In this document: positions 599-20,136 of the stretch, in pieces
Numbering within the stretch: the first letter of the stretch is position 1
Layout of the letters: every line of letters starts with the position of its first letter
IMG/VR virus record: IMGVR_UViG_3300002132_000163
Location: 1 to 23,120 of that record
DNA: 23,120 nt
Reading direction: 5' to 3' (one strand)
Source of the DNA: a virus
Notes under the pieces: generated by a model
What the model saw: only the letters and a program-made list of their open reading frames with translations
Database searches by the model: none
Told to the model about the DNA's origin: nothing
Translations under genes and position numbers: made by a program

Positions 599-1005
599 TA
601 TATAATATAGATCGTCGACGGGTGGATATCCCGTCGTCGTACTTACATATAATGTTGGTGTGGCGGTCGGCGGCCGTACCGCGTAATATCCGCGTAATAT
701 ACCACGCGCGCCGATGTCCATCGATGCGTGTATGCGCGGAGAAAGGGTTTAGCGTCATTCACAGAGCTTATACAAAAGTACACCACCGAGGAGTATATAC
801 AAATATACCCCCATAAATGAATATAAAGGCCCAAAATGGAAAAAAGGATAAAAAATCGTGGATCCAAAACCTCTTTTTTAAACAAAATTTTCACCGTCGA
901 TGAAGTATATACAGTAATTTGAAAGTAATGTACAGGAAACTTGGCTTAGCCAAGGAGCGGTCGTATATTACGGACGTAATAAGAAATAATAAATAAATAA
1001 AAGTT
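599..1005. other. 407-bp non-coding region with GC-rich hairpin cluster
   Basis: I see no convincing gene on either strand here. Short open frames exist, but they are Arg/Tyr/Ile-rich with no start context like the neighbouring genes. The first part (about 610-745) is unusually GC-rich: 38 of the 60 bases in 661-720 are G or C, against about one third in the flanks. Visible inverted repeats are CGACGGG (616-622) with CCCGTCG (630-636); GCGGT+CGG (663-670) with CCG+ACCGC (674-682, one bulged T); and CGCGT (691-695) with ACGCG (704-708). CGCGTAATAT occurs twice in a row (680-689 and 691-700). The second part is AT-rich, with a hairpin GTATAT/ATATAC (793-808), AGTATATAC at 792-800 and 904-912, and a promoter-like element near 940-980. 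A structured RNA or a regulatory region is possible. Confidence 0.6.
940..981 (+). promoter_or_regulatory. putative promoter, TTG-N20-TATATT type (copy 1)
   Basis: TTG (941-943), a 20-nt spacer and TATATT (964-969) are followed by CGG and GTAATAA, 36 nt before the DUF932 start. The layout is near-identical at 2393-2433, where TTGGCT also lies exactly 20 nt upstream of TCGTATATT. It resembles the Bacteroidota -33 TTG / -7 TAnnTTTG promoter, although the -7 match is incomplete. A perfect 6-bp hairpin (CTTGGC, loop TTA, GCCAAG; 940-954) overlaps the -33 part and could be an operator. The assignment is inferred from recurrence and position. Confidence 0.45.
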
Positions 1006-2392: not shown

Positions 2393-2433
2393 TTGGCTAC
2401 CCGAGGATTTGTTCGTATATTCCGGGGGTAATA
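2393..2433 (+). promoter_or_regulatory. putative promoter, TTG-N20-TATATT type (copy 2)
   Basis: TTG (2393-2395), a 20-nt spacer, TATATT (2416-2421), then CCGG and GTAATAA. It aligns without gaps to the element at 941-982: both have TTGGCT exactly 20 nt before TCGTATATT, and both share CGG and GTAATAA downstream. It lies in the 65-bp gap, 32 nt before the 2454 start. Probably it drives the cluster of small genes 2454-3046. Confidence 0.45.
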
Positions 2434-3046: not shown

Positions 3047-3075
3047 GGATAGTTTCGTATATTGATAATATAAAT
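3034..3075 (+). promoter_or_regulatory. putative promoter, TTG-N21-TATATT type (copy 3)
   Basis: TTG (3034-3036), a 21-nt spacer and TATATT (3058-3063) within TTTCGTATATTGATA, 29 nt before the ATG at 3093. It shares TCGTATATT with copies 1 and 2 but lacks the downstream CGG and GTAATAA. The -33 part overlaps the end of the preceding gene. Confidence 0.35.
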
Positions 3076-3092: not shown

Positions 3093-3269
3093 ATGAACGA
3101 ATTGAAAAATGAATTAGTAAACGAGTTGGCATTTTTGAGTGGATTAAAAGATAAAGTTTGGAAATACCATCCAAACAATCCCGATAGAGTATCAGTGGTA
3201 GATGAATATGCTCAACTACAGATGGAGATTGAGGAAATAGAAGACAGATTAGACCAGTTAGGTTTTTAA
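3093..3269 (+). CDS. small hypothetical protein, 58 aa
   Basis: This 58-aa frame, MNELKNELVNEL... to ...DRLDQLGF, has a full A/T-rich leader ending AAAAGTTATGAA, the strongest start context in the window, and a promoter-like element 29 nt upstream. I therefore regard it as a real gene. Two heptad-like helices (residues 1-20, and 38-56 with LQMEIEEIEDRLDQL) flank a short Trp/Tyr/Pro segment, KVWKYHPNNPDRV (21-33). This suggests a small antiparallel helical hairpin or a coiled-coil dimer. No enzymatic motif is present and the role is unknown. It ends 7 bp before the tRNA-Leu gene, so the tRNA may be processed from the same transcript. Confidence 0.7.
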   Translation: MNELKNELVNELAFLSGLKDKVWKYHPNNPDRVSVVDEYAQLQMEIEEIEDRLDQLGF

Positions 3270-3534: not shown

Positions 3535-3607
3535 GCGAGAGTAGCTCAGTTGGTAGAGCATTAGTTTACCAAACTAAGGGTCGCGAGTTCGAATCTCGTC
3601 TTTCGCT
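3535..3607 (+). tRNA. tRNA-Gly (unusual anticodon ACC)
   Basis: A complete 73-nt cloverleaf. The acceptor stem is GCGAGAG (3535-3541) with CTTTCGC (3600-3606), one G-U pair. The D-stem is GCTC/GAGC with loop AGTTGGTA. The anticodon stem is TTAGT/ACTAA (3561-3565, 3573-3577) around loop TTACCAA, so positions 34-36 read ACC. The T-arm is GCGAG-TTCGAAT-CTCGT and the discriminator is T73. The body and T73 closely match ordinary bacterial tRNA-Gly(GCC), including the block GGTCGCGAGTTCGA, so glycine identity is well supported. The wobble base is A instead of G, which is very rare in bacterial glycine tRNAs. CCA is not encoded. Confidence 0.93.
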
Positions 3608-3644
3608 CTAAGTAAGTTGTTTCAAATTAAATAAATTAAAAATT

Positions 3645-4060: not shown

Positions 4061-4087
4061 CGTAAAAAACGGAATAAACACATATTT

Positions 4088-4537
4088 ATGTACATGGATA
4101 TAGAAAAAGTATTTGGATTATTTGATAATGAGGAACCGGATTCATTGCTTGAAAAAGCGAGACTGGTGGATCAATTATTAGATTATAAAGAACATCCTTT
4201 GTTCTGGGTAGGTATGTTTAAAAAACTTATTCATAATCATAAAACATTCAATAGTAAAGTTTTAGAGTTTTATTCAAAAATGGATGAGGAATTAGACATA
4301 TATGATGTTGAAGTTGCCGGTGAATTTGTAGTCTACAATAGAGCTTGGTTTTGGATATCAAAAATAAATATTCAAGATAGGGATAACCAGGAAGCTATAT
4401 TACATTACGGAGACGAATATCTAACAACTTATTTTAAGTTTATAATATCGTATTTTGAAGAATTTGAAGAATATGAAAAATGTGCCCATATAAAAACACT
4501 TCTAGACTATACCCAACTTACTTTAAAAATAAATTAG
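4088..4537 (+). CDS. hypothetical phage protein, 149 aa
   Basis: The function is not recognised. Translation could begin at 4088 (MYMDIEK) or at the ATG at 4094 (MDIEK), and neither has the AGTT context. The protein is acidic and rich in aromatic residues. It looks all-helical: LLEKARLVDQLLDYKEHPLFWVGMF, then a Glu/Asp/Tyr segment (DEELDIYDVEVAGEFVVYNRAWFWISKI), then FIISYFEEFEEYEKCAHIKTLLDYT. The helical-pair pattern and the last third (SYFEEFEEYEKCAHIKTLLD) recall small TPR-like or adaptor folds, but I cannot assign a family. No membrane segment or catalytic signature is present. It has its own promoter-like region after a terminator and is followed by a non-coding purine-rich stretch, so it may be transcribed alone. 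Confidence 0.75.
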   Translation: MYMDIEKVFGLFDNEEPDSLLEKARLVDQLLDYKEHPLFWVGMFKKLIHNHKTFNSKVLEFYSKMDEELDIYDVEVAGEFVVYNRAWFWISKINIQDRDNQEAILHYGDEYLTTYFKFIISYFEEFEEYEKCAHIKTLLDYTQLTLKIN

Positions 4538-5955: not shown

Positions 5956-6654
5956 ATGGCTAAAAGGAGAAAAAAAGGTATTCAATATTTTACCCAAGAA
6001 ACCGAAGATTTTATTGTATTATATAATGAAACAGAAGATTTCGATGTAAAGAGTAGAATATACAATGATAAAATCCATTATGCTTTTTTCAAACTAACGG
6101 AAAACATAATTCATACTTTTAAATTTTATTATACTGAAGTAGATAATATTGAAGATCTACAACACGAGGTAATAACATTTCTTCTTTCAAAAATCCATTT
6201 ATTTGATCAATCACGAGGTGCCAAAGCATTTTCTTATTTTGGCACCATAGCAAAACGATATTTAATATTATCAAATCAGAAAAATTATAAAAAACGTGTA
6301 GATACTGCACCTATTTCTGTTTTAGAAGATGATGAAAACCATTCATATAATATTTTAGAAGGACATAAGAATGATTTATTATCTAAATTTATAGATGAAT
6401 ACACAGAATATTGTACTACAAATATTTATAAATTATTCCCTAAAGGTGATGATGCTACAATAGCAGATGCTATTTTAGAATTATTTCGTAAAAGAGAAGA
6501 TATTGATATTTTCAATAAAAAAGCATTATACATTTATATTCGTGAAATGGTAGATGTTAAAACTCCTAAAATTACAAAAATAGCTAATCAGCTATATGAT
6601 GTGTTTAAAACACATTATGTCTTTTATTTGGAAAACGGTTATACAAAGTTTTAG
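5956..6654 (+). CDS. T4 gp55-like late sigma factor
   Basis: This 232-aa protein looks like the reduced sigma factor of T4-like phages (gp55), which directs host RNA polymerase to late promoters. The region-2-like core is residues 64-106: NIEDLQHEVITFLLSKIHLFD, then SRGAKAFSYFGTIAKRYLI, which follows the sigma pattern of an acidic helix, FDxxRG, then FxYxxxxAxxxL with aromatic residues for promoter melting. The N-terminus is basic (MAKRRKKG). There is no clear region 4, as in gp55, and the length is close to gp55 family members. The C-terminal helices (MVDVKTPKITKIANQLYDVF) may contact polymerase or a co-activator. It follows the membrane-protein gene by one base and lies just before the structural block. 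TATTTATA elements sit in the three wide gaps of that block. Confidence 0.8.
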   Translation: MAKRRKKGIQYFTQETEDFIVLYNETEDFDVKSRIYNDKIHYAFFKLTENIIHTFKFYYTEVDNIEDLQHEVITFLLSKIHLFDQSRGAKAFSYFGTIAKRYLILSNQKNYKKRVDTAPISVLEDDENHSYNILEGHKNDLLSKFIDEYTEYCTTNIYKLFPKGDDATIADAILELFRKREDIDIFNKKALYIYIREMVDVKTPKITKIANQLYDVFKTHYVFYLENGYTKF

Positions 6655-6660
6655 TTTCTA

Positions 6661-6668
6661 TATTTATA
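6661..6668 (+). promoter_or_regulatory. putative late promoter TATTTATA (copy 1)
   Basis: TATTTATA lies in the 35-bp gap after the sigma gene, 21 nt before the ATG at 6690. The same octamer occupies the two other wide gaps of the structural block at 18-19 nt from the start. It would serve the first late gene unit (6690-9692). The octamer is the reverse complement of the T4 late consensus TATAAATA, so the orientation needs care. AT-rich octamers also occur by chance. Confidence 0.5.
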
Positions 6669-6689
6669 ACGGAATTAAACGTATGTATT

Positions 6690-7031
6690 ATGTCACAATT
6701 AGATAGTGTAGTATTTGGTAAGAAAAAATTCTCGGATATTCTTCAAGAAATATATAATAACCAAACAGAAAAAAAAAGACAAGTTAGCGCATTAATATCG
6801 GAATTAAAACCCTTAATATCCGATATAGGTGATGCTACTCTTATTGTTCCCTTGATTAAGGAATATATGGAAATTGGAGTTAAAAATGATGAACAACTCA
6901 TCAAAATGGCTACCATTATTCAACGTGTATTACAAAATCAAACAACTGAGGGAGAATATACAATTTCAGAAGATGAGAAAGACCAACTTTTATCAGCAAT
7001 GGAAGAACTTCAAACTAAAAAATTAAAATAA
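6690..7031 (+). CDS. hypothetical protein, 113 aa, first gene of late block
   Basis: The function is not recognised. The ATG at 6690 is chosen over the in-frame-neutral ATG at 6683 because it lies 21 nt after the candidate late promoter and gives the only long frame. The protein is soluble and helical: residues 9-20 FGKKKFSDILQE, 27-46 RQVSALISELKPLISDI, 50-60 TLIVPLIKEYM and 68-84 DEQLIKMATIIQRVL. The last third is Glu/Lys-rich (SEDEKDQLLSAMEELQTKKLK). The pattern of short amphipathic helices suits a tail-assembly chaperone or small virion protein. The stop TAA overlaps the spike gene ATG (TAATG), so the two products are probably coupled. Its neighbours are baseplate genes, which makes an assembly role plausible but unproven. 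Confidence 0.7.
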   Translation: MSQLDSVVFGKKKFSDILQEIYNNQTEKKRQVSALISELKPLISDIGDATLIVPLIKEYMEIGVKNDEQLIKMATIIQRVLQNQTTEGEYTISEDEKDQLLSAMEELQTKKLK

Positions 7032-8269
7032 TGGCAACTTATGGGTTTTCATCTTTAAACAAATCCCTTAACTCTAATGATAAAGGACAACTATCAACGC
7101 CTAAACCAGATCAAATAACAGTAGGTAGAGTAACAAAGGTTTATATAGATCCTAACAATCCATCCCAAATAGGATGGGTAGAATATGTAAATGTTAATAA
7201 ACCTACTACACCTCCTAGTGATTTATCTGTTTCTAATACAAGCATATTACCAATAGCAAAACCCATATTATCCCATACTAGATATATTCCATTAATTAAT
7301 GAAATTATATTATTAATAACTGAAGCAGATATAGGAATATCATCTTCTATATCTAGTAAATCAGTATATTATATGTCGGTTATTAATATGTGGAATCACC
7401 CACATTTAAATGCATTTCCACAATATGAGGGTAATACCTCCCCCACTCAACAAAAGTCATATGTTCAAACAAGTTTAGGAAGTACAGTAAAACAACCCAA
7501 TCAACCATCTACAATAACATTAGGTGATACATTTATTGAATTACCTAATATCCACCCATTACAACCCTTTGAAGGAGATTTAATTCAAGAAGGTAGATGG
7601 GGAAATAGTATTAGATTTGGATCAACCATATTATTAAATGGTGACCCACAAAATTGGTGGTCATCCGGGAGTATAAGTGGTAATCCTATTACTATCATCA
7701 GAAATGGTCAAGGAGAACAATCAAATGAGGGAACAACGGTTGTGGTTGAAGATATAAATAATGATGAATCTTCTATTTGGTTAGCAAGTAACCAACAAAT
7801 CCCACTTACACCAGCAAGTGATGATTATACCAGTTATAAAAATGCACCAACATCCCCAACAGAGTATTTAGGAAAACAAATAATAATAAATTCAGGTAGA
7901 TTAGTATTTAATACTACTGAAGATCATCTATTATTAAGTTCAAATAAATCTATAAATTTAAATGGAGTAGAAAGTGTAAACACAGATACACCTTTATTTG
8001 TAGTACAAGCAGATAAAATATATTTAGGTTCAAAAAATGCTGATCAACCATTATTATTAGGAAATAATACAAAAGATTTACTTAATTCATTATTAATAGA
8101 TATCAAAACTCTACTAACTGTTCTATCAGCACAACCCGGAGTACAACCAGGAACTCCACTTGAACCAACAAGAACAACTGCTGAAAATATGATACCATCT
8201 ATTAATCAATTAATTAGTGATATTAATGAACCTGGGTATTTAACCTCTAAAGACAATTTTACATCGTAA
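7031..8269 (+). CDS. OB-fold baseplate spike protein (gp5/VgrG-like)
   Basis: This 412-aa protein has the layout of a central-spike/hub protein without the lysozyme domain of T4 gp5. Residues 28-120 look like an OB-type barrel: QITVGRVTKVYIDPNNP, then RYIPLINEIILLI, then YYMSVINMWNHP. Residues 175-205 carry FEGDLIQEGRWGNSIRFGST, a pattern I associate with phage spike proteins. Residues 214-310 are strand-rich (NPITIIRNGQ; IIINSGRLVFNTTEDHLLLS; SINLNG), consistent with a beta-helical needle. The C-terminus (DLLNSLLIDIKTLL) is helical. The protein would sit at the tail axis and puncture the cell surface at contraction. It overlaps the preceding gene by TAATG and precedes the 473-aa gene by one base. 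Confidence 0.7.
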   Translation: MATYGFSSLNKSLNSNDKGQLSTPKPDQITVGRVTKVYIDPNNPSQIGWVEYVNVNKPTTPPSDLSVSNTSILPIAKPILSHTRYIPLINEIILLITEADIGISSSISSKSVYYMSVINMWNHPHLNAFPQYEGNTSPTQQKSYVQTSLGSTVKQPNQPSTITLGDTFIELPNIHPLQPFEGDLIQEGRWGNSIRFGSTILLNGDPQNWWSSGSISGNPITIIRNGQGEQSNEGTTVVVEDINNDESSIWLASNQQIPLTPASDDYTSYKNAPTSPTEYLGKQIIINSGRLVFNTTEDHLLLSSNKSINLNGVESVNTDTPLFVVQADKIYLGSKNADQPLLLGNNTKDLLNSLLIDIKTLLTVLSAQPGVQPGTPLEPTRTTAENMIPSINQLISDINEPGYLTSKDNFTS

Positions 8270-8270
8270 T

Positions 8271-9692
8271 ATGGGACCATTTGAAGATATCAATAATATA
8301 AAAGGAAGTATAAAAGATAACTTAAAATCAAAAATACCTTCTAATCCTCTTAATGGGGTGTTTCCCTCAAATAAAAATACCCCTACATTAGATCCTAAAA
8401 ATGTATTTCCTACTACTGCTACATTAAATGATGATCAAAAAACACCAATTACTGCTTTCTGGGAAAAAGGTATTAGCGGATACCCTGTATTTAGTTGTCA
8501 AGCCGTAAAACAATATTCTGAAGGTCCAAAAACATTTACTAGTAAAAAATTATCAATTCCCTCAAAACCTACAGAAGATGAATTAAATTCATCCCTTTCA
8601 AATATATTCTTTAATTTATCTCAAGAAATATATGTTTATGATTCTAAACTAAAATTAGAGAATGGTAAAACTGAATATAGTCCTGAATTATATAATTTTG
8701 TTTACCCAACAAATGTTCCCTGGAAAGAACCAAAACCTTCACCCCAAGATAAAGAAGAGGAAAGAGAAGCAATAAAAATAACAAATAAGAAACGTACTAA
8801 AAAAACAAAATCTCTTAAAGTTAATGAGGAGGCTATATTAAATGCAACCCCAAGTGATTTAAAAACCACAGGAGCAAGTAAATTACCCGAGTTAATATAT
8901 AAACTAGGAGAAACAATCCCTATAATAATACTCCCCGTATTAGAAAATTTAATCATTGAATATATAACAAATTATATTAAAGATAATATTGACTTATGTC
9001 CCCCACGAAATGTTTTAGAAAATTTAACAATTTTAAGAAATAGAATTGTAAATCAATTAAATAAAATAGTTAATAATATAGAAAAAATAGGTAGTTCTAT
9101 ATCAGGTATACAACAATTTTTAAAGGGTGTATTAAAATCAATAACTGGAATTGAATTAGCATCTATAGGAATATCAGCAGGAGCAAAAGCATTAGTACCT
9201 CCTGTAATTATACCCGGTGCTATAACTTCAGCTTTAAATGATGCTCAAACATTTATTAGAAAACAAACATTTGATAAATTAGGTAATTCTAAATTATCAA
9301 AAGCCACAGCAACAGTAGCATCAGCATCAATGGTTATGTCCTTAATTGCAGGATATGTTCTTCAAGCTTTAGCACTCCTTGAAATAATAGATAATATATT
9401 AAAAAAATGTGCTCCTGATTTAACACTTGATTCTATATCGGATGAGGTAAAGACAATGTCCCTTTTACAATTAAATGCTCAAAATACACAAAATGATACA
9501 ACCTATAAAGGATTTGTAATAGATATAATTACCGTTCCCTATACTCCTACCGTAAATAGAATACAAGCAGTTGCTAAAAATAAATACGGAATTATAATGA
9601 TTACGGGTAATCTATCATTTACAAGTAGCAACCAAACACTAATTAACGAACTTAAATTAATAATTGACAGAGATAATTTAACAGGTTACTAA
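8271..9692 (+). CDS. virion-module protein with hydrophobic C-terminal half, 473 aa
   Basis: I do not recognise a family. The N-terminal 150 residues are Pro/Asn/Thr-rich with a strand-like aromatic part (TPITAFWEKGISGYPVFSC, 58-76). Residues 156-184 are a very charged linker (DKEEEREAIKITNKKRTKKTKSLK). The second half contains three hydrophobic stretches: 214-232 (ETIPIIILPVLENLIIEYI), 274-320 (Gly/Ile/Ala-rich, with LVPPVIIPGAI) and 348-374 (TVASASMVMSLIAGYVLQALALLEII). The last 70 residues appear to be a small alpha/beta domain. Direct adjacency (1 bp) to the spike gene suggests a partner of the spike or hub, possibly a membrane-inserting or channel-forming component. That is inference. 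It is too short to be an obvious tape measure, but a tape-measure fragment cannot be excluded. Confidence 0.7.
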   Translation: MGPFEDINNIKGSIKDNLKSKIPSNPLNGVFPSNKNTPTLDPKNVFPTTATLNDDQKTPITAFWEKGISGYPVFSCQAVKQYSEGPKTFTSKKLSIPSKPTEDELNSSLSNIFFNLSQEIYVYDSKLKLENGKTEYSPELYNFVYPTNVPWKEPKPSPQDKEEEREAIKITNKKRTKKTKSLKVNEEAILNATPSDLKTTGASKLPELIYKLGETIPIIILPVLENLIIEYITNYIKDNIDLCPPRNVLENLTILRNRIVNQLNKIVNNIEKIGSSISGIQQFLKGVLKSITGIELASIGISAGAKALVPPVIIPGAITSALNDAQTFIRKQTFDKLGNSKLSKATATVASASMVMSLIAGYVLQALALLEIIDNILKKCAPDLTLDSISDEVKTMSLLQLNAQNTQNDTTYKGFVIDIITVPYTPTVNRIQAVAKNKYGIIMITGNLSFTSSNQTLINELKLIIDRDNLTGY

Positions 9693-9698
9693 TATTAA

Positions 9699-9706
9699 TA
9701 TTTATA
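9699..9706 (+). promoter_or_regulatory. putative late promoter TATTTATA (copy 2)
   Basis: TATTTATA lies in the 32-bp gap between the 473-aa and 111-aa genes, 18 nt before the ATG at 9725. It is flanked by AATA upstream and CATAA downstream. The position matches copies 1 and 3. It would start a unit containing the 111-aa, gp25-like and gp6-like genes and those following, up to 19450. Confidence 0.5.
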
Positions 9707-9724
9707 CATAAACAATAACAATCA

Positions 9725-10060
9725 ATGAAAACCTCAGAACTTAAAAACCTCCTTAAAGAAGCAGTAAAGGAAGCAATCCAAGAGGAGTTACGTGATATTT
9801 TACTGGAAGCAGTTAAAGGATCCAAACCCCAAATTAATGAATCATATGCTCAACCCGTAATTAACCAACCTAAACAACTTACTTCTGAAGAACGAAGAAA
9901 TATGTTTTCAGGTATATTAGGTGAAATGCAACAAGGTGGTGTAGCAAATACAGCATATGCTGGAACAATGCAAGCTTCTGGTCCTGTAGATGCTATTAAT
10001 GGATCATTACCTGAAGGAAGTGTAGGATTAGATCAAATAATGAACTTAATGAAAAAATAA
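9725..10060 (+). CDS. hypothetical virion-module protein, 111 aa
   Basis: The function is not recognised. The first 30 residues form a Lys/Glu-rich amphipathic helix (ELKNLLKEAVKEAIQEELRDILLEAV). A Pro/Asn/Gln linker follows (residues 35-52), then a segment EERRNMFSGILGEM (54-68), and then a Gly/Ala/Ser-rich tail with LPEGSVGLDQIMNLMKK at the end. The helical N-terminus and low-complexity middle resemble capsid- or tail-associated connector peptides, but nothing decides which. The stop overlaps the gp25-like ATG (TAATG), so translation of the two is likely coupled. The start is 18 nt after a candidate late promoter. Confidence 0.7.
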   Translation: MKTSELKNLLKEAVKEAIQEELRDILLEAVKGSKPQINESYAQPVINQPKQLTSEERRNMFSGILGEMQQGGVANTAYAGTMQASGPVDAINGSLPEGSVGLDQIMNLMKK

Positions 10061-10467
10061 TGGCATTCGGAGCAAGAAAAATATTTCCTATAGACACTAA
10101 ACCGGGAACGGCTGTTGGTGTGTCTTTACCATTTAATGCTCCCGCTGTATTTAATTCAACATATACTACACAAGATGCAATTAGAAATAATCTAATTAAC
10201 TTTTTCCTTACAGACCAACCAGAACGATATTTAAATCCATTATTTGGAGGTAATTTAAGATCATTTGTTTTTGAACAAATGTCTGCGGATAATAATGAAA
10301 AAATAGATACTTATTTATTACAACAATTATCTCAATATTTTTCAAATCTTGAAGTAGTTAATCTAAATACCAAATTCTCACCAGATATTAATACTGTGGA
10401 TATATCATTAACATATTTAATAAAAAACACAGGAATAACAGACTCAATACAATTAGAATTTAACTAA
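10060..10467 (+). CDS. gp25-like baseplate wedge protein (GPW/gp25 family)
   Basis: This 135-aa protein matches the GPW/gp25 family, small wedge subunits that link the baseplate sheath to the hub and trigger sheath contraction. The diagnostic segment is residues 37-72: TTQDAIRNNLINFFLT, then ERYLNPLFGGNLRSFVFE, equivalent to the family's RxxxPxFG-x-L-x-xxFE. The length is close to T4 gp25 (132 aa). The C-terminal half (NTVDISLTYLIKN) fits the family's last strands. It overlaps both neighbours by TAATG. Placement immediately before the gp6/J-like gene is the canonical wedge order in myoviruses, which strongly supports the assignment. Confidence 0.9.
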   Translation: MAFGARKIFPIDTKPGTAVGVSLPFNAPAVFNSTYTTQDAIRNNLINFFLTDQPERYLNPLFGGNLRSFVFEQMSADNNEKIDTYLLQQLSQYFSNLEVVNLNTKFSPDINTVDISLTYLIKNTGITDSIQLEFN

Positions 10468-12329
10468 TGGCTACTAAAAAAAATATACAATATATCAATA
10501 AAGATTTCTCTGAATTGAGAGCATCTTTGGTTGATTATGCTAAAACATATTTCCCCACAACTTATAATGATTTTACCCCTACATCACCTGGTATGATGTT
10601 TATGGAACAAGCAGCATATGTTGGTGATGTTTTATCATTTTATCTTGATAATCAAATCCAAGAAACATTTTTACAATACGCTCGTCAAACAAATAATTTA
10701 TATGAATTAGCTTATATGTTTGGGTATAAACCAAATGTAACACAAGTAGCTACTACTATTATGGATATATACCAATGGGTTCCTGCTATTACTAATTCCG
10801 GAAGTCAATATCCTGATTTTAACTATACTTTAAATATACCATCAAACACAGTAGTAACTCAAATATCTAATAATAAAATTCCATTTTTAATGGAAAACCC
10901 AGTAGATTTTTCAGTTTCAAGTTCATCAGATCCAACAGAAATTTCAATATATGAAATATCAGGTATAACACCAACAAAATTCCTATTAAAAAAACAAAGA
11001 AGAGCAATATCCTCTACTATATCCACCCAACAATTTTCATTTACTACTCCACAACAATTTACTACTATAAATTTAAATGCTAATAATATAGTTGGAATTT
11101 TAGATATTATAGATTCTGATAGTAATGAATGGTATGAGGTTGATTATCTTGGTCAAGAAATGGTATATAATTCAATAAAAAATACCAACGTAAATGATCC
11201 AAATTTATCACAATATAAAGGTGATACTCCCTATTTATTAAAATTAGAAAAAATACAACGTAGATTTGCTACCCGTTTTCTTGATTCAGGATCATTACAA
11301 ATCCAATTTGGATCAGGAACAGCAATAGATAGTGATGAAGATATAATACCTAACCCAGATAATGTTGGATTAGGATTACCATTTGAAAAAGATAAACTTA
11401 CACAAGCTTACTCACCCTCTAACTTCTTATTTACAAAAACTTATGGTATAGCACCTTCCCAAACAACACTCACTGTTAGATATTTAACAGGTGGTGGTGT
11501 TACTTCGAATGTAGATGCTAATACTTTAACATCAATTAATAAAAATAATATTACATTTTTAAATAGTAATATATCTAATACTACAGTAGCTCAAGAAGTT
11601 TATAATGGTTTAGCAGTTTCAAACCCAATAGCAGCCGATGGTGGTGGTGATGGAGATACAATAGAAGAATTAAGACAAAATTCATCTGCTAATTTTGCTT
11701 CTCAATTACGTAACGTAACACAGGACGATTATTTAGTTAGAGCACTTTCTATGCCTGCTAAATATGGAGTGGTATCAAAAGCATATATTGAACCAACTAA
11801 AGCAGCAACGTTATCTGCTGGTGAATCTAATTCTGTATTAGATTTATACGTTTTATCATATAATGCATCTAAACAATTAAATACATCTACCCCAGCATTA
11901 AAATCAAATATTACAACATATCTATCTCAATATAGAATGGTAAATGATGCTATTAATATTAAAGATGGATTTATAATTAATATAGGAATTAATTTTGATA
12001 TAATTGTTCTTCCTGATTATAATAGTAATGAAGTATTAATAAAATGTATTGAAGCTTTAAAAGTATATTTTTCAATTGATAATTGGCAAATCAATCAACC
12101 AATTATTTTAAGAGATATATATGTTCTTTTAGATAAAATTGAAGGTGTACAAACAGTTAAAACAATATCAATACCTAATTTTACAGGAGAAGCATTAGGT
12201 TACTCTCCTTATTCATATAGTATATCAGCGGCAACTGTAGGTAATGTTATTTATCCTTCACTTGATCCAAGTATTTTTGAAATTAAATATCCTAACACAG
12301 ACATTCAAGGTAGAGTAGTACCTTTATAA
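10467..12329 (+). CDS. gp6/J-like baseplate wedge protein
   Basis: This 620-aa protein resembles T4 gp6 and P2 gpJ, the large baseplate wedge subunit. Residues 10-80 carry the family signature: KDFSELRASLVDYAKTYFP, then FTPTSPGMMFMEQAAYVGD, then LDNQIQETFLQYARQTNNLYELAYMFGYKP. Residues 390-440 contain EELRQNSSANFASQLRNVTQDDYLVRALSMP, the typical middle domain that binds neighbouring wedges. The C-terminal third (about 500-620) has helical and strand segments and ends in KYPNTDIQGRVVPL. Its length is close to T4 gp6 (660 aa). It overlaps the gp25-like gene by TAATG and precedes the DNRLRE-type gene by 10 bp. Assignment as wedge protein is firm; the exact equivalence to gp6 is inferred from family and gene order. 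Confidence 0.9.
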   Translation: MATKKNIQYINKDFSELRASLVDYAKTYFPTTYNDFTPTSPGMMFMEQAAYVGDVLSFYLDNQIQETFLQYARQTNNLYELAYMFGYKPNVTQVATTIMDIYQWVPAITNSGSQYPDFNYTLNIPSNTVVTQISNNKIPFLMENPVDFSVSSSSDPTEISIYEISGITPTKFLLKKQRRAISSTISTQQFSFTTPQQFTTINLNANNIVGILDIIDSDSNEWYEVDYLGQEMVYNSIKNTNVNDPNLSQYKGDTPYLLKLEKIQRRFATRFLDSGSLQIQFGSGTAIDSDEDIIPNPDNVGLGLPFEKDKLTQAYSPSNFLFTKTYGIAPSQTTLTVRYLTGGGVTSNVDANTLTSINKNNITFLNSNISNTTVAQEVYNGLAVSNPIAADGGGDGDTIEELRQNSSANFASQLRNVTQDDYLVRALSMPAKYGVVSKAYIEPTKAATLSAGESNSVLDLYVLSYNASKQLNTSTPALKSNITTYLSQYRMVNDAINIKDGFIINIGINFDIIVLPDYNSNEVLIKCIEALKVYFSIDNWQINQPIILRDIYVLLDKIEGVQTVKTISIPNFTGEALGYSPYSYSISAATVGNVIYPSLDPSIFEIKYPNTDIQGRVVPL

Positions 12330-12339
12330 ATAAAAAATA

Positions 12340-13512
12340 ATGGCAGTATATAAAATATTCCCTTCAAAAGATGCTACAATGTATTCAATGTATCCTACAA
12401 TGAATACAGGATTAGATGAGATAATTGAATCTACATTAACATCAATAGCACCAACTGATCCAAATCCTCAAGTTAGTAGATTTTTAATTAAATTCGATCA
12501 ATCGAATATTGAAAATGTAATGACTAATCTAGTTAATGGATCTGAATGGCAAGCTAATTTAAGATGTTTTGTTGCTATAACAACAGGTTTAGATTTAGAT
12601 ACAACAGTAGATATATGGGCTGTATCTGGTTCTTGGGATATGGGAACTGGTAAATATTTAGATCAACCATTATCTACTGATGGAGTTTCTTGGATATATA
12701 GAACATATAATACCGGCTCTCCGTGGAATGCTATATCCCCAGGTCCTAATGTAACTTCTGATTATGATCTTAATTACGCACCACCTGGAGGTGGTACGTG
12801 GTATAATCAAATATCTTCTGGATCTACAAATACTTATTTATCATCATCACAAGTATATTCATATGCACAAGATAAAGATTTAAATGTTGATGTTACTAAT
12901 ATAGTAGATGTATGGTTATCTGGTTCTATTTCTTATTATCCGCCAGCATCCATAGTTACAAGTAGTCTTTCCGTTATTAATGAAGGATTTCTTGTAAAAC
13001 AACAACTTGAGTGGGTTGATTCAAATAATTACCAACCAGAAATTAAATTTTTCTCTATAGATACCCACACCATATATCCTCCAGTATTAGAGATTAAATG
13101 GGATGATTATATATATAATACCGGAAGTTTATCTACACTTAACACCCTCCCAGCAACATTAACATTAGCCCAAAACCCAGGTACATTTTATTCAGAAAGT
13201 ATAAATAGATTTAGAGTCAATTCCCGACCTGAATACCCACCCCAAGTTTGGCAAACATCATCAGTATATTTAACTAATTATGCTTTACCAACAGCATCCT
13301 ATTGGGCTTTAAAAGATCTAGATACTAATGAATATGTAATTGATTTTGATACAACCTATACTAAATTAAGTTGTGATAGTAATGGAAGTTATTTTGATAT
13401 GCATATGAGTGGTTTGGAACCACAAAGATACTATCAAATAATAATTAAAACTAATATAGATAATTCTACAATTGTATTTGATGAAGAATATTATTTTAAG
13501 ATAATTAATTAA
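12340..13512 (+). CDS. baseplate-associated DNRLRE-type jelly-roll protein, 390 aa
   Basis: Residues 1-258 resemble the DNRLRE (CBM96-like) jelly-roll: KDATMYSMYPTMNTGLDEI at the start (compare the family's ...ntnyG pattern), SRFLIKFD at 46-53, SWIYRTYNTGSPW at 117-129, LNVDVTNIVDVWLSG at 181-195 and NEGFLVKQQLEWVDS at 214-228, then PPVLEIKWDD. The Trp in SGSWD and the V-DVT-x-x-V-x-x-W block are typical. In bacteria this domain occurs in secreted or carbohydrate-binding proteins. Residues 260-390 form a second part with Tyr/Asp-rich strands (PEYPPQVWQTSSVYLT...). It could be a baseplate component such as the gp8-type wedge, or an adhesin. No gp7/gp8 similarity is clear. It starts 10 bp after the gp6-like gene and ends 2 bp before the next. 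Confidence 0.65.
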   Translation: MAVYKIFPSKDATMYSMYPTMNTGLDEIIESTLTSIAPTDPNPQVSRFLIKFDQSNIENVMTNLVNGSEWQANLRCFVAITTGLDLDTTVDIWAVSGSWDMGTGKYLDQPLSTDGVSWIYRTYNTGSPWNAISPGPNVTSDYDLNYAPPGGGTWYNQISSGSTNTYLSSSQVYSYAQDKDLNVDVTNIVDVWLSGSISYYPPASIVTSSLSVINEGFLVKQQLEWVDSNNYQPEIKFFSIDTHTIYPPVLEIKWDDYIYNTGSLSTLNTLPATLTLAQNPGTFYSESINRFRVNSRPEYPPQVWQTSSVYLTNYALPTASYWALKDLDTNEYVIDFDTTYTKLSCDSNGSYFDMHMSGLEPQRYYQIIIKTNIDNSTIVFDEEYYFKIIN

Positions 13513-13514
13513 TT

Positions 13515-13844
13515 ATGGAGATAGTTAATTTAAATAAACAGGTATATAATAAAAATCAATATGTAAAAGTAATTAATACTTCCTTTACCCAATTGATACC
13601 TACCCCTGTAATTGAGCCAGCTCTTATTGTTCCTACACTACAGGATTTTTTTAATAATTATAATTCTCTCTTTTTCCAAATACCTAAATTTGGAGACACG
13701 AATTCTCATCAGTATATTATTAACACAAGTAGTAATTATATTGGGGAAAATCAAGATAATGAAACTATACAAGCATTGATTGATGAAATAACTCAATTAA
13801 GAGAAGAAAATTTAAATTTACAACAACAACTATTTGCAATCTAA
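13515..13844 (+). CDS. hypothetical protein with C-terminal leucine zipper, 109 aa
   Basis: The function is not recognised. Residues 1-65 are strand-rich with a Pro-rich turn (IPTPVIEPALIVPTLQDFF), followed by a Ser/Asn stretch. Residues 83-107 (ETIQALIDEITQLREENLNLQQQL) form a clear heptad coiled coil with Leu/Ile at the a/d positions, suggesting a trimer or dimer stalk. It is 2 bp after the DNRLRE-type gene and 11 bp before the 1864-aa gene, so it is certainly part of the same transcript. A small trimeric connector that holds the next protein, or a fibre/baseplate attachment protein, would be a natural reading, but this is inference. Confidence 0.7.
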   Translation: MEIVNLNKQVYNKNQYVKVINTSFTQLIPTPVIEPALIVPTLQDFFNNYNSLFFQIPKFGDTNSHQYIINTSSNYIGENQDNETIQALIDEITQLREENLNLQQQLFAI

Positions 13845-13855
13845 TCACCAGTTTA

Positions 13856-16800
13856 ATGGAAGATATAATTACAATATTACCTATAAATCCAAATAATTTT
13901 GAATTACAAGAATATTCAACTAGTGATACTTCTTTAATTCAAACAAATATTATATCTGTTGATTTTGACCCTCAAACGGATAATATTGAATATTTTGTAT
14001 ATAATCTTAATAATGAGATTATAGCAAGTCAAGAAGCAAATTTTGGAGGATATTCAATTATTAATAATAATGTATCAATAGATCCTGTATCTGACTTAAA
14101 AAATAATGGTCAAGATGAGGGTAGTTTTAATACATTATATAATTTTCAAACAGATAAAATAGGTTCATACTTTTACCAACTATTCATACAAGAAATATCA
14201 TCAGACAGAACTGAAATTAGGCTTAGTAGTAATAAATTATTAGATATAGAATTAATCACCCAAGCCGAAGATCTAATAAATGAGATTAATAATGCTCCAG
14301 TCGATTATGTTGATTTTTTATTAAATTTTGGTAAAAATCAACTAATAATAGCCAATAATATATTATTAGATACAAGTAACACAGACACACCCTCCATTTT
14401 AATTAAATTATATGACCCATTACCTAATAATTTCAACACCCAGTCAGAATGTTGGGTTGTGGAACAATTAGCAGAGTCGATTGCTTATAATATTTCTATA
14501 TCTCCTAATTTTTCAGAAATAGATAATAATATTTATCTAAAGGGTCCTAATTTAAACATACCTATTAAAGATAGAATTAATAACTCTACACCTTATGGTA
14601 ATTATAATTCATTATCATCAACAAATTCTATCCAAGGATCAGGAAGCCTCCAATACCAATTAAATAGTTTATTAGTTGAAAAAGGAATTGAAATAAATAT
14701 TGATTATAGTGATTATAGTAATTTTATAAATTTCTCATCTGCCCAAACTAGAGTAGAAAATTTTTATTATAAATTATCATTAATTGAAACATATAATGAA
14801 AGTGCTAGTTACTCATCAGGAATAACAACCAACACCTATATATCCTCAAGTAATAATGTTTGGCAAACTAAAATAAATGAACTTATTACTGGTTTTGATA
14901 GTTATGAGTATTTTTTATATTTTGAATCAGGTTCAGCAAATTGGCCTAAATCAAATTCAACATATCCGTATGTAAACGAAACATCAACTTCAGTTATAGG
15001 TCAAAATTGGTTAGTAAATCAATCAACAATAGCTGAATCCTTTGATCTTGAGAATAATAATTCATTAGTAAATTCAATTCCTTTATATATACGGGAAGAT
15101 GCTGCTAATTCACAATTTGAATTATTTATTGAGATGATTGGTCAACATTTTGATAGTATCTTTGTATATTTACAAGATGTTACTAATAAATATAATGCTG
15201 ATAATCGTTTAGATTATGGTGTGTCTAAAGATTTAGTAGCAGATATTATACGAGATTTAGGTGTAAAAATATACCAAAATAATTTCTCATCCAATGATTT
15301 ATACCAAGCATTATTAGGTATAACACCTTCAGGTAGTTTATATAATTTACCTTACACCACTGGTATATTACCTACTCCATCAGGGTGGGAGTATATTGAC
15401 ACTTATACAACAGCATCAGCAACAGGTTCTTTAGAGCCAACAGATGATGTTAATAAATCTATATATAAAAGAATATACCATAATTTACCTTATTTACTTA
15501 AGAAAAAAGGAACAGTAGAAGGATTAAGGGCACTTATCTCAATTTATGGTATCCCAGATACAATATTACGTGTAAATGAATTTGGAGGTAAAGATAAAGA
15601 TAATTCAAATGATTGGGATTTTTGGTATAATCAATTTGACTATCAATATAATACTAATAATGATGGTATAATACAATCAAATTGGGAAATTAACTCATTA
15701 TGGAATTCTGAAGATGACCGTCCTCAAACAGTTGAGTTTAGATTTCAAACCCCAGGACTAGAATCAGCATTATCTAAAAATACTCAAAGTTTATGGAGTT
15801 TAGATAGTGATGTTAGAATTGATCTTGAATACACAGGTTCAGGATATACATCCGGATCATATAGTGGTTCAATACCAAACCCAGAAAATGAATATGCTAC
15901 TTTAAAGTTTATTACTAATAATGAATCTGCTAGTATTTATTTACCATTTTATGATGGTGGTTGGTGGTCAGTAGCCGTAACTCGTGATGGTGATAATTTT
16001 AATCTATTTGCTGGAAATAACATTTATACAGGTGAAGAAGGATCATCAATAGGTTTTACAGGATCAGCAACATTAAATTCATCAGCAACCGAATGGATAA
16101 ATGGAACATATTCAGATTTATCACCCCTTTCAATAAATAATAAATTCAGTGGATCATTCCAAGAACTTAGATTTTATAATACTCCAATATTAAGGAGTGT
16201 ATTTGATGATTATGTGATGAATCACAATTCTATAGAAGGTAATCAAATAAACTCATCACCAGAGCAATTAGCTTTTAGAGCATCTTTAGGTGGTGAATTA
16301 TATGTAGGTAATGAATCTATACATCCTAAATCTACAGGTTCAATAGAATATATAACTTCATCATTTACTTCAGGAAATGTATTTGATATTACAAATGGTG
16401 AGTTTACATCTAAAGAAGAATATGTTTATTTTGATCAAGTACCAGCAGGTATAAAAAATAGAAATTCTAATAAGATTAAACAATCTACATTAGTATTACC
16501 TTATACTTCATCAACATTAAATAACCTCCCTAATAACAATATATTATCCCCACTAATCCGTGTACAACAAAATTCATATGTAAGTGAAAGTTACACTCAA
16601 GATTTAGATTATGTTGAAGTTGCTTTTTCACCCCAAAATGAAATAAACGACGATATTATTAATAGTATCGGGTATTTTAACATAGGTGATTATATTGGTG
16701 ACCCAAGACAGGTATCGTCATCCGCTGACTTTTACCCTGAATTAAATACGCTTAGAGACGAATATTTTAAAAAATATAAATCGAATTATGATATTTGGGA

Positions 16801-19450
16801 TTATGTTCGTTTAATAAAATATTTGGATAATTCGTTATTTAAAATGCTTAAAGATTGGGTACCTGCTAGAACTTCATTGGCTGCTGGTGTTGTTATTAAA
16901 CAACATTTACTAGAGAGAAATAAATACCCAGTACCTCAAGTAGATACTTATACAACAACATCGTTCCAAATGCAAAATCAACCTTTTGTATTCCAAAACA
17001 TAGAAATTACAGGTTCACCAATCCAAATGTATACTATAACAGGTAGCAATGGTGGATCAATGCCTAATTTAGAAGGTGAAGTATCAGGTAGTGGACCAGG
17101 ATTTAATATATCTCCAATAACACAAAGTTGGACAGGTTCAACTCCCTCACTTTTAGGATCAGTTGGATTTACAGAAACATACCAATATGAATTCTATAAT
17201 GGTGAATTAAGTGGTTCTGAATTTATTGCTACTAATGGTGAATTAAATACAGAATGTGATCCTTTCAAATCAGTAGATACAACTGTAATTACTTATAATT
17301 TATCTGGAAGTTTTTCATCTAGTTTTAGTGAATTTAATGCTGAAACAAATGCTCAAACCGATAATGGAGAAATTCATATATGGTTTGATCGTACACTTGT
17401 TTCCAATTCACCTAATGATGTTGCCGGTGGTACATTCTATTATAGAATAACAGCACTTTCAATTGCTAAAGAATCATTAAATAGTTTAGATTTAAATAAT
17501 TACATCCCACAAGCATTAGAAATAATACTAAATGCTAATTATATTACTGCTAATTTTACATTAACGGGTTGGAGTAATTCATTTCCATATACAGGAACAA
17601 CAATTGCTCCATCTTGGGTAGGTAATCCAAATCCTACATTAGTAATAGATAATATTCAAGAAAGAACATCATTAAGTGGAGATGGATATTATTTACTTCA
17701 GTGTGTACCTAATCAAGATTCATATTTCAAAATATACACTGATTATACAGGCATAGGTACAGTCTCAGTAACCCCAAAATCATCAGTACTAACAATTATA
17801 GAACCATTTGTACCTGCTTCATTTCAAATAAGCGATTGTAATGTTATATTAAATAATGCGCCTGTAGCACGTTTTAACACGTTATATATGGATGTAGATT
17901 ATAGCTCCAATGCTATTGTCGCTGTTAACCAACAATCGATTATAAACGGTAATGCTACTAAAGCAGAAGTACAAGCATCTAATTATACTACAGCAAGAGT
18001 AATATATCCTAGATATATAGGTTCTAAAAATACCTCACCTGATTTTAATGTTGGATATAATTCTTCTAATATTAATGAACAATCAATATTTAATAATTCT
18101 GAAACATCTTTATCCCCACCTTCACTCCCATCAGTAGAATCAGATGGTGTTTATTTTGCTTATTTTGATTGGGTAGGAGGTACAACACCTGAACTTATAA
18201 ATAAGTCAGCAGCTCATATTATGTATTTAATTGATACTAAGGGAAATGCTTATACTCCTAATTTAACAAGTTCTTATTATTATAATTTAATTGATAGTTT
18301 TAATTCCAACAATAATAAAGCAAATGTATTATTAATAGGTTCTAATATAGAAACAACGGGTTCAAATAATTCCCAAATACCAGGAACCGTAGGAATTATC
18401 AAACCATCGGCACAACCAAAAGCAATTATATTCTCACAAACAGGTAGTTTATCTAATATACTTCCTTCTATGAGTTTTTCAAATCCAAATGTTTTACATG
18501 ATTATACAATTTCATGTCCATTAGATGCTTCTCCTCCAAATTTTCCAAAAGATGTAATAGATTGGCTTCCATTTGGAACCCCAACATTCCCATCTGGATC
18601 AGATGTTAGAGCATATCCATTACTTGATCAAATTGAAATACTTGAAAGTGATAATAATATTAATATATCTTTAAATTTAAGTCTTGATTTTCAAGTACCT
18701 CCTATCATATATTCAAAAATATTTTTGGATTTCCAAACATCAACGGATGGTGGATCTACTTGGACTAGTATTTATCAAGACCAAACACCATTAGTACAAG
18801 GTACTAATACTTTCAGATCATCAACCCCTTTTAGACCAGCAATAGCTGGAGATTTATATGCCGTGCGTTTTTCTTGTACTTATGGTGGAGCTGATTCTAA
18901 TCCATTATATATAAATCCAAGTAGTTTTCTATCTGTTACACAAAATCCACTACCTGGAGATGATGTATATTATACATCAGGTTCTATTGATTATTGGACA
19001 ATAGGAGGAGGTACAGGAAATGTATTAACAGGTTCTCAATTTACTTCTTTAATATATGGATCAAATCAAAACCAAGTTACTTCATCTACTGGTCAACCCT
19101 CATATGATTACCCATATATTAACTTTAATATACAACCTATGGATGAGATTAGATTTTCAGCTAATGAAGAATTATCATACCAAATTCTAGAAGTAACCCC
19201 ACCTTCAGATACTACTACTGATGAATTATACATAAAAATAGATAGAACAATATCTACAGGATCCATAGATATCAATTCATTTATGATTAGAAGATATGTT
19301 CCAAACCCAAATTTTGTAGTTTTAGATTCATCTAAACCATCAGGATTACAAATTGGAGCAGGATTTTTACTTCCTGAATACTCTTCTAATGAACTAAATA
19401 CCAAATTTGATGAAATAATACAAAACCTTACAGAAAAAGGATTAATTTAA
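13856..19450 (+). CDS. 1864-aa mosaic baseplate/tail-fibre protein
   Basis: This is by far the longest gene in the window. Residues 1-450 are Asn/Ser-rich strands. Residues 530-580 carry IYKRIYHNLPYLLKKKGTVE, then GLRALISIYGIPDTILRVNEFGG, a block I associate with marine-phage baseplate proteins. Residues 625-795 look like a LamG/concanavalin-type sandwich: WWSVAVTRDGDNFNLFAG, then GSFQELRFYNTPI. Residues 975-1025 carry WDYVRLIKYLDNSLFKMLKD, then WVPARTSLAAGVVIKQHLLERNKYP. The C-terminal 800 residues are Ser/Thr/Gly-rich beta segments with repeated TGS/SGS. Its position after the gp6-like gene suggests a gp7-like wedge or an adhesin base fused to glycan-binding domains. The exact role is uncertain. 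No frameshift is visible in the open frame. Confidence 0.7.
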   Translation: MEDIITILPINPNNFELQEYSTSDTSLIQTNIISVDFDPQTDNIEYFVYNLNNEIIASQEANFGGYSIINNNVSIDPVSDLKNNGQDEGSFNTLYNFQTDKIGSYFYQLFIQEISSDRTEIRLSSNKLLDIELITQAEDLINEINNAPVDYVDFLLNFGKNQLIIANNILLDTSNTDTPSILIKLYDPLPNNFNTQSECWVVEQLAESIAYNISISPNFSEIDNNIYLKGPNLNIPIKDRINNSTPYGNYNSLSSTNSIQGSGSLQYQLNSLLVEKGIEINIDYSDYSNFINFSSAQTRVENFYYKLSLIETYNESASYSSGITTNTYISSSNNVWQTKINELITGFDSYEYFLYFESGSANWPKSNSTYPYVNETSTSVIGQNWLVNQSTIAESFDLENNNSLVNSIPLYIREDAANSQFELFIEMIGQHFDSIFVYLQDVTNKYNADNRLDYGVSKDLVADIIRDLGVKIYQNNFSSNDLYQALLGITPSGSLYNLPYTTGILPTPSGWEYIDTYTTASATGSLEPTDDVNKSIYKRIYHNLPYLLKKKGTVEGLRALISIYGIPDTILRVNEFGGKDKDNSNDWDFWYNQFDYQYNTNNDGIIQSNWEINSLWNSEDDRPQTVEFRFQTPGLESALSKNTQSLWSLDSDVRIDLEYTGSGYTSGSYSGSIPNPENEYATLKFITNNESASIYLPFYDGGWWSVAVTRDGDNFNLFAGNNIYTGEEGSSIGFTGSATLNSSATEWINGTYSDLSPLSINNKFSGSFQELRFYNTPILRSVFDDYVMNHNSIEGNQINSSPEQLAFRASLGGELYVGNESIHPKSTGSIEYITSSFTSGNVFDITNGEFTSKEEYVYFDQVPAGIKNRNSNKIKQSTLVLPYTSSTLNNLPNNNILSPLIRVQQNSYVSESYTQDLDYVEVAFSPQNEINDDIINSIGYFNIGDYIGDPRQVSSSADFYPELNTLRDEYFKKYKSNYDIWDYVRLIKYLDNSLFKMLKDWVPARTSLAAGVVIKQHLLERNKYPVPQVDTYTTTSFQMQNQPFVFQNIEITGSPIQMYTITGSNGGSMPNLEGEVSGSGPGFNISPITQSWTGSTPSLLGSVGFTETYQYEFYNGELSGSEFIATNGELNTECDPFKSVDTTVITYNLSGSFSSSFSEFNAETNAQTDNGEIHIWFDRTLVSNSPNDVAGGTFYYRITALSIAKESLNSLDLNNYIPQALEIILNANYITANFTLTGWSNSFPYTGTTIAPSWVGNPNPTLVIDNIQERTSLSGDGYYLLQCVPNQDSYFKIYTDYTGIGTVSVTPKSSVLTIIEPFVPASFQISDCNVILNNAPVARFNTLYMDVDYSSNAIVAVNQQSIINGNATKAEVQASNYTTARVIYPRYIGSKNTSPDFNVGYNSSNINEQSIFNNSETSLSPPSLPSVESDGVYFAYFDWVGGTTPELINKSAAHIMYLIDTKGNAYTPNLTSSYYYNLIDSFNSNNNKANVLLIGSNIETTGSNNSQIPGTVGIIKPSAQPKAIIFSQTGSLSNILPSMSFSNPNVLHDYTISCPLDASPPNFPKDVIDWLPFGTPTFPSGSDVRAYPLLDQIEILESDNNINISLNLSLDFQVPPIIYSKIFLDFQTSTDGGSTWTSIYQDQTPLVQGTNTFRSSTPFRPAIAGDLYAVRFSCTYGGADSNPLYINPSSFLSVTQNPLPGDDVYYTSGSIDYWTIGGGTGNVLTGSQFTSLIYGSNQNQVTSSTGQPSYDYPYINFNIQPMDEIRFSANEELSYQILEVTPPSDTTTDELYIKIDRTISTGSIDINSFMIRRYVPNPNFVVLDSSKPSGLQIGAGFLLPEYSSNELNTKFDEIIQNLTEKGLI

Positions 19451-19452
19451 TA

Positions 19453-19460
19453 TATTTATA
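19453..19460 (+). promoter_or_regulatory. putative late promoter TATTTATA (copy 3)
   Basis: TATTTATA lies in the 29-bp gap after the 1864-aa gene, 19 nt before the ATG at 19480. The local context TATATTTATAAC repeats that of copy 1 at 6659-6670 exactly. It would drive the 218-aa virion protein and the tail proteins after it, allowing stronger expression than the long upstream transcript. Confidence 0.5.
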
Positions 19461-19479: not shown

Positions 19480-20136
19480 ATGGGATATTTAAATAACTCA
19501 GTAGTAACAGTAGACGCTATTTTAACAACAAAAGGACGTCAGTTATTAGCTCAAAATGATGGAGCTTTTAGAATTACACAATTTGCATTAGCGGATGATG
19601 AAATAGATTATACTCTATACAATCCTAATCACCCATCAGGATCAGCATATTATGGTGAAGCATTACAAAATATGCCTTTACTTGAAGCATTTCCACAAGA
19701 AACTCAAGTAATGAAATACAAATTAGTAACATTACCTCGTGGTACTGCTAAGATGCCTATCCTAGATTTAGGTTACCAATCAATAGTAATCAAACAAGGT
19801 GCTTCATTAGCAATCACACCTCAAACATTAAATTATCAAGGTGGAAATACATATGAAACAGCAGGATATACAGCTACAATTTCAGATGTTAGATTATGTT
19901 CAACCTTCGAAGGTGTTGGTATTAATACTCCTGAAGTACAAGCATTAAATGCAACAACAACTTTAGGTACAAGCGTATCTAAAACAGTAGTTGGTACAAC
20001 AATTAATTTACGTGCAACAACAATAAATACATTATTTGGTACTTCTAATACCGCATTATATGCTACTTTAACTGTAGTAGGTAGAGACAGTGGTGCTAGG
20101 GTAACTATTCCAATAACCGTAACTAAAGTATCTTAA
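19480..20136 (+). CDS. conserved phage structural protein, 218 aa
   Basis: I know this sequence type from marine myoviruses but cannot name a molecular role. Residues 1-110 are the conserved part: VVTVDAILTTKGRQLLAQND, then FRITQFALADDEIDYTLYNP, then MPLLEAFPQETQVMKYKLVT and LPRGTAKMPILDLGY. Residues 120-218 look like a beta-sandwich (YTATISDVRLCSTFEG, then ATLTVVGRDSGARVTIPITVTKVS), possibly Ig-like. Such add-on domains on virion surfaces often bind weakly to glycans. It is preceded by a candidate late promoter and followed, after 11 bp, by two paralogous tail proteins. A tail or baseplate surface protein is the most economical reading. Confidence 0.75.
   Translation: MGYLNNSVVTVDAILTTKGRQLLAQNDGAFRITQFALADDEIDYTLYNPNHPSGSAYYGEALQNMPLLEAFPQETQVMKYKLVTLPRGTAKMPILDLGYQSIVIKQGASLAITPQTLNYQGGNTYETAGYTATISDVRLCSTFEGVGINTPEVQALNATTTLGTSVSKTVVGTTINLRATTINTLFGTSNTALYATLTVVGRDSGARVTIPITVTKVS

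Follow-up and report, generated by a model that had tools for sequence, protein, structure and literature searches.

Gene layout and octamer sites in the window

The window (the whole 23,120-nucleotide stretch analyzed here, positions 1 to 23,120 of IMG/VR record IMGVR_UViG_3300002132_000163) carries a sigma factor gene just upstream of a block of structural genes. The octamer TATTTATA lies ahead of three genes of this block, and a variant lies ahead of a gene outside it. The features are as follows.

4083-4090, plus strand: variant octamer TATTTATG, 3 nt 5' of the ATG at 4094, outside the structural block
4094..4537, plus strand: gene, function not assigned, with a probable start at 4094 judged by homology to relatives
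5956..6654, plus strand: phage sigma factor (sigma-70 region 2; "late sigma," PHROG 234)
6661-6668, plus strand: putative late promoter octamer TATTTATA, 21 nt 5' of the ATG at 6690
6690..7031, plus strand: first late-block gene, 113 aa, function not assigned
9699-9706, plus strand: putative late promoter octamer TATTTATA, 18 nt 5' of the ATG at 9725
9725..10060, plus strand: 111-aa gene directly 5' of the gp25 baseplate gene
10060..12329, plus strand: gp25-like and gp6-like baseplate genes, within the putative second unit (Pfam GPW_gp25, 2.3e-6; PHROG baseplate wedge)
19453-19460, plus strand: putative late promoter octamer TATTTATA, 19 nt 5' of the ATG at 19480
19480..20136, plus strand: conserved 218-aa virion-block gene, which opens the putative third transcription unit

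The initial annotation had placed TATTTATA in the three wide gaps of the block, 21, 18, and 19 nt before the start codons, and had found none in the smaller gaps. Coordinates and distances were confirmed, and the remaining gaps (10, 2, 11, 11, 5, and 4 nt, or overlaps) had no TATTTATA. A copy inside the sigma gene, which it had put at 6424, is present but occupies 6423-6430; this is the fourth on the plus strand, and there are no further plus-strand copies in the window. Over the whole window and both strands, TATTTATA occurred 10 times versus 11.1 times expected from shuffled sequence, a total at chance, so the count is no evidence. In contrast, none of 200,000 simulations under a first-order Markov model built from the block's upstream regions put TATTTATA in all three gaps, which bears out the earlier argument that position, not count, is what matters. 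For the gene at 4094, the listed start at 4088 falls within the variant octamer, and the true start is probably 4094 rather than 4088, as judged from relatives. The window also has, at 3535-3608, a tRNA-Gly whose anticodon is ACC (with A as base 34), which is unusual for glycine.

Conservation of the octamer at orthologous genes

Searches of IMG/VR with the window sigma and with the 19480 protein yielded 80 loci apiece, at 76 to 91% identity. We scored the octamer up to 45 nt upstream of orthologous starts, counting distinct sequences and calling genes in unannotated contigs with a simple ORF finder. Among these loci, which are interrelated so that the counts are not independent (the safeguards, here and below, being family-level counts, with 103 and 61 families, and three separate lineages), TATTTATA preceded 36 of 42 orthologues of the gene at 6690, all 53 of the gene at 9725, and 66 of 68 of the gene at 19480. 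It preceded 0 or 1 orthologue of the other window genes, except for the gene listed at 4088 (6/43), an exception that reflects the shifted variant site which this gene has of its own at 4083-4090. The starts of the gp25-like and gp6-like genes had none (0/60 and 0/56), nor was TATTTATA found upstream of the sigma gene (0/36). In the orthologues of the gene at 19480, ATATTTATAA was constant while the flanks were free to vary; thus, the element itself is conserved and not merely the region.

A second clade was assembled from 80 loci fetched with the sigma of Flavobacterium phage immuto, with sigmas 43 to 51% identical to that of the window. In this immuto-like clade, an octamer lay no more than 60 nt past the sigma stop codon in 58 of 70 loci. 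The immuto orthologue of the gene at 6690 (at 78906) is likewise preceded by the sigma gene and an octamer.

De novo recovery and strand specificity

With no motif supplied, we ranked upstream 8-mers relative to the counts predicted by a second-order Markov model, and the octamer emerged in three lineages: immuto, Microcystis phage Mel-JY01, and the clade of the window itself. The first or nearly first place went to TATTTATA, or to 8-mers shifted from it by one base, in G001 (149.8 kb; 21 observed versus 1.5 expected, with 1 reverse complement), G006 (10 versus 0.84), G002 (9 versus 1.3), and Mel-JY01 (12 versus 2.0). The excess was also strong in immuto (21 versus 2.4), and across the immuto-like clade CTATTTAT ranked first (118 versus 3.65). 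The octamer was strand specific in the relatives' genomes; for instance, the 14-mer ATATTTATAAYAAA had 36 copies in eight contigs, all on a single strand within each contig. The family consensus is [A/C]TATTTAT[A/T]. We rejected a reading of the octamer as a TATAAT-like -10 element (TATAAY at its 3' end) because its last base and the next base vary between clades while TATTTAT is constant.

The same pipeline run on T4 gave TATAAAT 19 times (4.5 expected) and TATTTAT 6 times (4.2 expected), and on S-PM2 it gave ATAAATA 14 times (2.0 expected) and TATTTAT 2 times (1.0 expected). In these two phages it thus recovered TATAAATA, the T4 late box, and not TATTTATA. In immuto, G001, and G009, TATTTAT was enriched and TATAAAT was at expectation, and upstream k-mer counts gave no enrichment of TATAAATA in immuto or the window clade. 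The initial annotation had pointed to a genome-wide scan before start codons as a check on its reading; with T4 and S-PM2 as controls, enrichment was found in immuto, G001, G009, and G010. The sigmas of Mel-JY01 and of LR756508, used as queries, retrieved no or almost no additional contigs.

Two observations on these phages stand apart from the octamer. A different upstream motif, ATATTTAGGTATCAATAATT, is repeated about 16 times in immuto, with a GTATCTTTAGG variant in G009. Although the record of Mel-JY01 lists it as infecting Microcystis, the sigma and gp6 of this phage are similar to their counterparts in the window and in Flavobacterium phages; a gene for ribosomal protein S21 is also present.

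Association with late genes

We took as late the two structural blocks of immuto, delimited by annotation and not by expression (78.9 to 101 kb and from 114 kb), and assigned genes of G001, G009, and G010 as late or non-late via homologues mapped onto the immuto division. With late genes so defined, the octamer was associated with them in all four genomes (Fisher P values of 4.4e-6 for immuto, 0.0038 for G001, 2.2e-6 for G009, and 3e-5 for G010). In immuto, the genes with an octamer in front include those for the terminase, gp20, the tail sheath, tail completion, the hub, and the tape measure, along with the orthologues of the window genes at 6690 and 19480. The association is not complete: of the 29 genes in the immuto late blocks that follow a gap of at least 25 nt, 14, including the major capsid gene, have no exact octamer, and some immuto octamers sit before genes outside the structural blocks. 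Octamer sites are followed by AT-rich DNA and have an A-rich flank on the sense side, and there is no strong upstream element (between -40 and -2, relative entropy did not exceed 0.32 bit).

Spacing to the start codon

The distance from octamer to start codon was bimodal in both clades, at either 3 to 5 nt or 10 to 24 nt, with 6 to 9 nt rare. The window-like clade had 126 sites at 3 to 5 nt and 24 at 6 to 9 nt, with the remainder mostly at 10 to 24 nt; the immuto-like clade had 74 and 6, respectively, with the remainder mostly at 10 to 19 nt. The T4 late box occupies -13 to -6 (PMC2988020; PMC1524935), and the 8-bp -7 element of Flavobacterium johnsoniae ends 4 to 5 nt before the start site (PMC6847099). 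Given these offsets, a spacing of 3 to 5 nt would put the start codon at or beside +1, and the messages of such genes are probably leaderless. This mode is consistent with a T4-type start about one helical turn downstream, with the box at -13 to -6. If transcription starts about 4 nt past the box, the dip at 6 to 9 nt may arise because a leader of 1 to 5 bases would be neither leaderless nor adequate for a leadered start.

The gene at 9725 falls on both sides of this division. Most relatives have the octamer 3 to 5 nt from the homologous start codon, while the window copy is 18 nt away, and we predict a leaderless message in most relatives and a leadered one in the window; the start is not miscalled, since homology extends through the N terminus (MKTSELK...) up to the first methionine. 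The message of the gene at 4094 is also predicted to be leaderless. Among its 82 orthologues, 37 had an octamer variant 3 to 4 nt before an ATG or GTG (15 ATG and 15 GTG at exactly 3 nt and 7 more at 4 nt), and 45 had no match to the pattern used. In Mel-JY01, many sites have a spacing of 31 to 39 nt, and the leaders contain Shine-Dalgarno-like GGAG or GAGG. As a separate observation, Pelagibacter phage HTVC008M, from a group whose late promoters were previously not predictable (PMC7029224), has five WATAAATA sites 3 to 5 nt before start codons and possibly has leaderless late genes.

The adjoining sigma factor

The protein encoded at 5956..6654 is a sigma-70 family member with an extra helical C-terminal domain. 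On its own it matched PHROG 234 (late sigma) at 0.0035, with Pfam Sigma70_r2 below the cutoff. Sigma region 2 is nonetheless present, as 38 of the 89 proteins of the family matched Sigma70_r2 (best, 5.7e-5, with modest scores), and 12 of the 89 matched PHROG 234 (best, 4.6e-4). An AlphaFold2 model (pLDDT of 81 with a deeper alignment and 59 with a shallow one) matched mostly sigma factors by fold, including the sigma-like factor of Klebsiella phage KPV15. The family also has a conserved aromatic C terminus, with no role assigned.

The initial annotation had called this protein a gp55-like sigma and had suggested that it may read the octamer. The presence of sigma region 2 agrees with the first part, but the protein bears little resemblance to gp55 of T4: the fold match (7d7c_F) had a TM score of 0.51 by target but an E value of 7.8, profile comparison was not significant (hhalign probability of 1 to 2%), and a PDB sequence search with the sigma profile gave no sigma match. 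A T4-type clamp, gp45 (PF02916), was found in 0 of 6 related genomes, a search that may miss distant homologues. In these two respects, the weak gp55 homology and the gp45 result in the six genomes, the system may differ from that of T4. The window sigma appears to take the place of gp55 and is a putative member of the gp55 family; that it recognizes the octamer we infer.

DISCUSSION

We consider it quite probable that TATTTATA is a gp55-class single-element late promoter, with the box inverted, in immuto-related T4-like myoviruses. It would act as a single -10-like element in the way that TATAAATA does in T4: the core RNA polymerase of the host, carrying the phage sigma encoded just upstream of the late block as the proposed reader of the box, would probably initiate 4 to 5 nt past it. 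The sigma gene has no box of its own and probably belongs to an earlier stage of expression, so that the three units that begin at 6690, 9725, and 19480 would be turned on by its product. A box 3 to 5 nt from a start codon would place the start of the transcript there, leaving it leaderless; at other sites the leader would be short.

With the T4 gp55 system this arrangement shares a single 8-bp AT box before late genes, AT-rich DNA downstream, no -35 element (T4 late promoters have none [PMC2988020]), a phage-encoded sigma with region 2, and T4-like virion genes. It differs in the box, TATTTATA being the reverse complement of TATAAATA or, equivalently, having TT in place of AA at two central positions. 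The initial annotation had made the same identification of the octamer as an inverted T4 late box and a late-class element, and the genome-wide tests support it. The altered late box of the T4-type phage Aeh1, CTAAATA from -12 (PMC1524935), is changed at its 5' end, while the change here is in the center. S-PM2 (ATAAATA) is also a T4-like phage with a single-element late box, but in the T4 orientation. Neither T4 nor S-PM2 has boxes at 3 to 5 nt, whereas many copies here have this leaderless spacing. Literature searches on the motif, Mel-JY01, and immuto transcription returned nothing relevant, and we found no paper describing the motif.

A promoter read by the host primary sigma, or by some factor other than the gp55-like protein, is the strongest competing explanation, though an unlikely one. 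The octamer is in the same register as the Bacteroidota -7 element TAnnTTTG and agrees with it at some T/A positions; that element is also 8 bp long and, in F. johnsoniae, ends 4 to 5 nt before the start. Moreover, LR756508 has a related sigma (39% identical) but no octamer, and its upstream regions gave no alternative motif; the linkage between sigma and octamer is thus imperfect. However, where the host element has T6 and G8, the octamer has A and A, and it also has no counterpart of the -33 TTTG; lacking T6, G8, and any upstream element, TATTTATA does not match a Bacteroidota sigma-A promoter. The octamer also tracks late genes, and sigma and octamer occur together in immuto, the window clade, and Mel-JY01, while T4, S-PM2, HTVC008M, and PTm1 had neither a sigma homologue (single-sequence search) nor comparable octamer enrichment. 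Finally, the same scan found in these genomes a distinct two-element class, TTTGG-N19-TATATT, with leaders AAAGGTTATG or AAAAGTTATG, which is close to the host -33/-7 promoter and closer than the octamer class. Its existence speaks against the earlier suggestion that the octamer is a hybrid with the -7 element. The window has three such promoters, all upstream of the structural block and before early-region genes.

961..969, plus strand: host-like promoter core TCGTATATT, with upstream TTGG, before the gene at 1006
2413..2421, plus strand: host-like promoter TTTGG...TTCGTATATT
3055..3063, plus strand: host-like promoter TTGG...TTCGTATATT, before the ORF at 3093

Several host-like promoters of the window share a repeated leader ending in AAAGTTATG. 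In Tenacibaculum phage PTm1, upstream ATATTTG, which resembles the host -7 element, was observed 34 times versus 4.5 expected.

The position of the octamer just 5' of start codons would also suit a signal acting in RNA, such as a translation enhancer or processing site in late leaders, with no promoter. We regard this as improbable, as the octamer preceded 199 of 543 starts with a gap of at least 12 nt but only 11 of 949 with a gap of at most 11 nt. In addition, the dip at 6 to 9 nt agrees with initiation at a constant distance past the octamer, and the spacing in Mel-JY01 is longer, as if accommodating a ribosome-binding site after the octamer. Less probable still is antisense transcription, with TATAAATA being read by the phage sigma from the other strand: the reverse complement of the octamer is exactly the T4 box, but the fixed downstream spacing and the A-rich flank are both on the sense side, and copies of TATAAATA on the coding strand are neither spaced in this way nor enriched. 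A chance origin in AT-rich DNA, suggested by the window total alone, is refuted by orthologous conservation, de novo recovery, the junction test, and the immuto-like clade counts, and we give it practically no weight.

With an inverted-box late promoter as the preferred reading, we lean slightly toward a broader one, in which these phages have a T4-type late system whose sigma's box is inverted and whose geometry would leave the late messages of a fixed set of genes without leaders, the hosts being bacteria that do not use Shine-Dalgarno sequences. The fixed spacing of 3 to 5 nt predicts leaderless late messages, unlike most F. johnsoniae transcripts, which are leadered (PMC6847099). The swapped box would also offer a naturally occurring test of DNA recognition by a minimal sigma, in which two related systems use reverse-complement boxes. 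On this reading, the late promoter of a large group of aquatic phages can now be read from sequence, and late operons may thus be called in hundreds of uncultured genomes.
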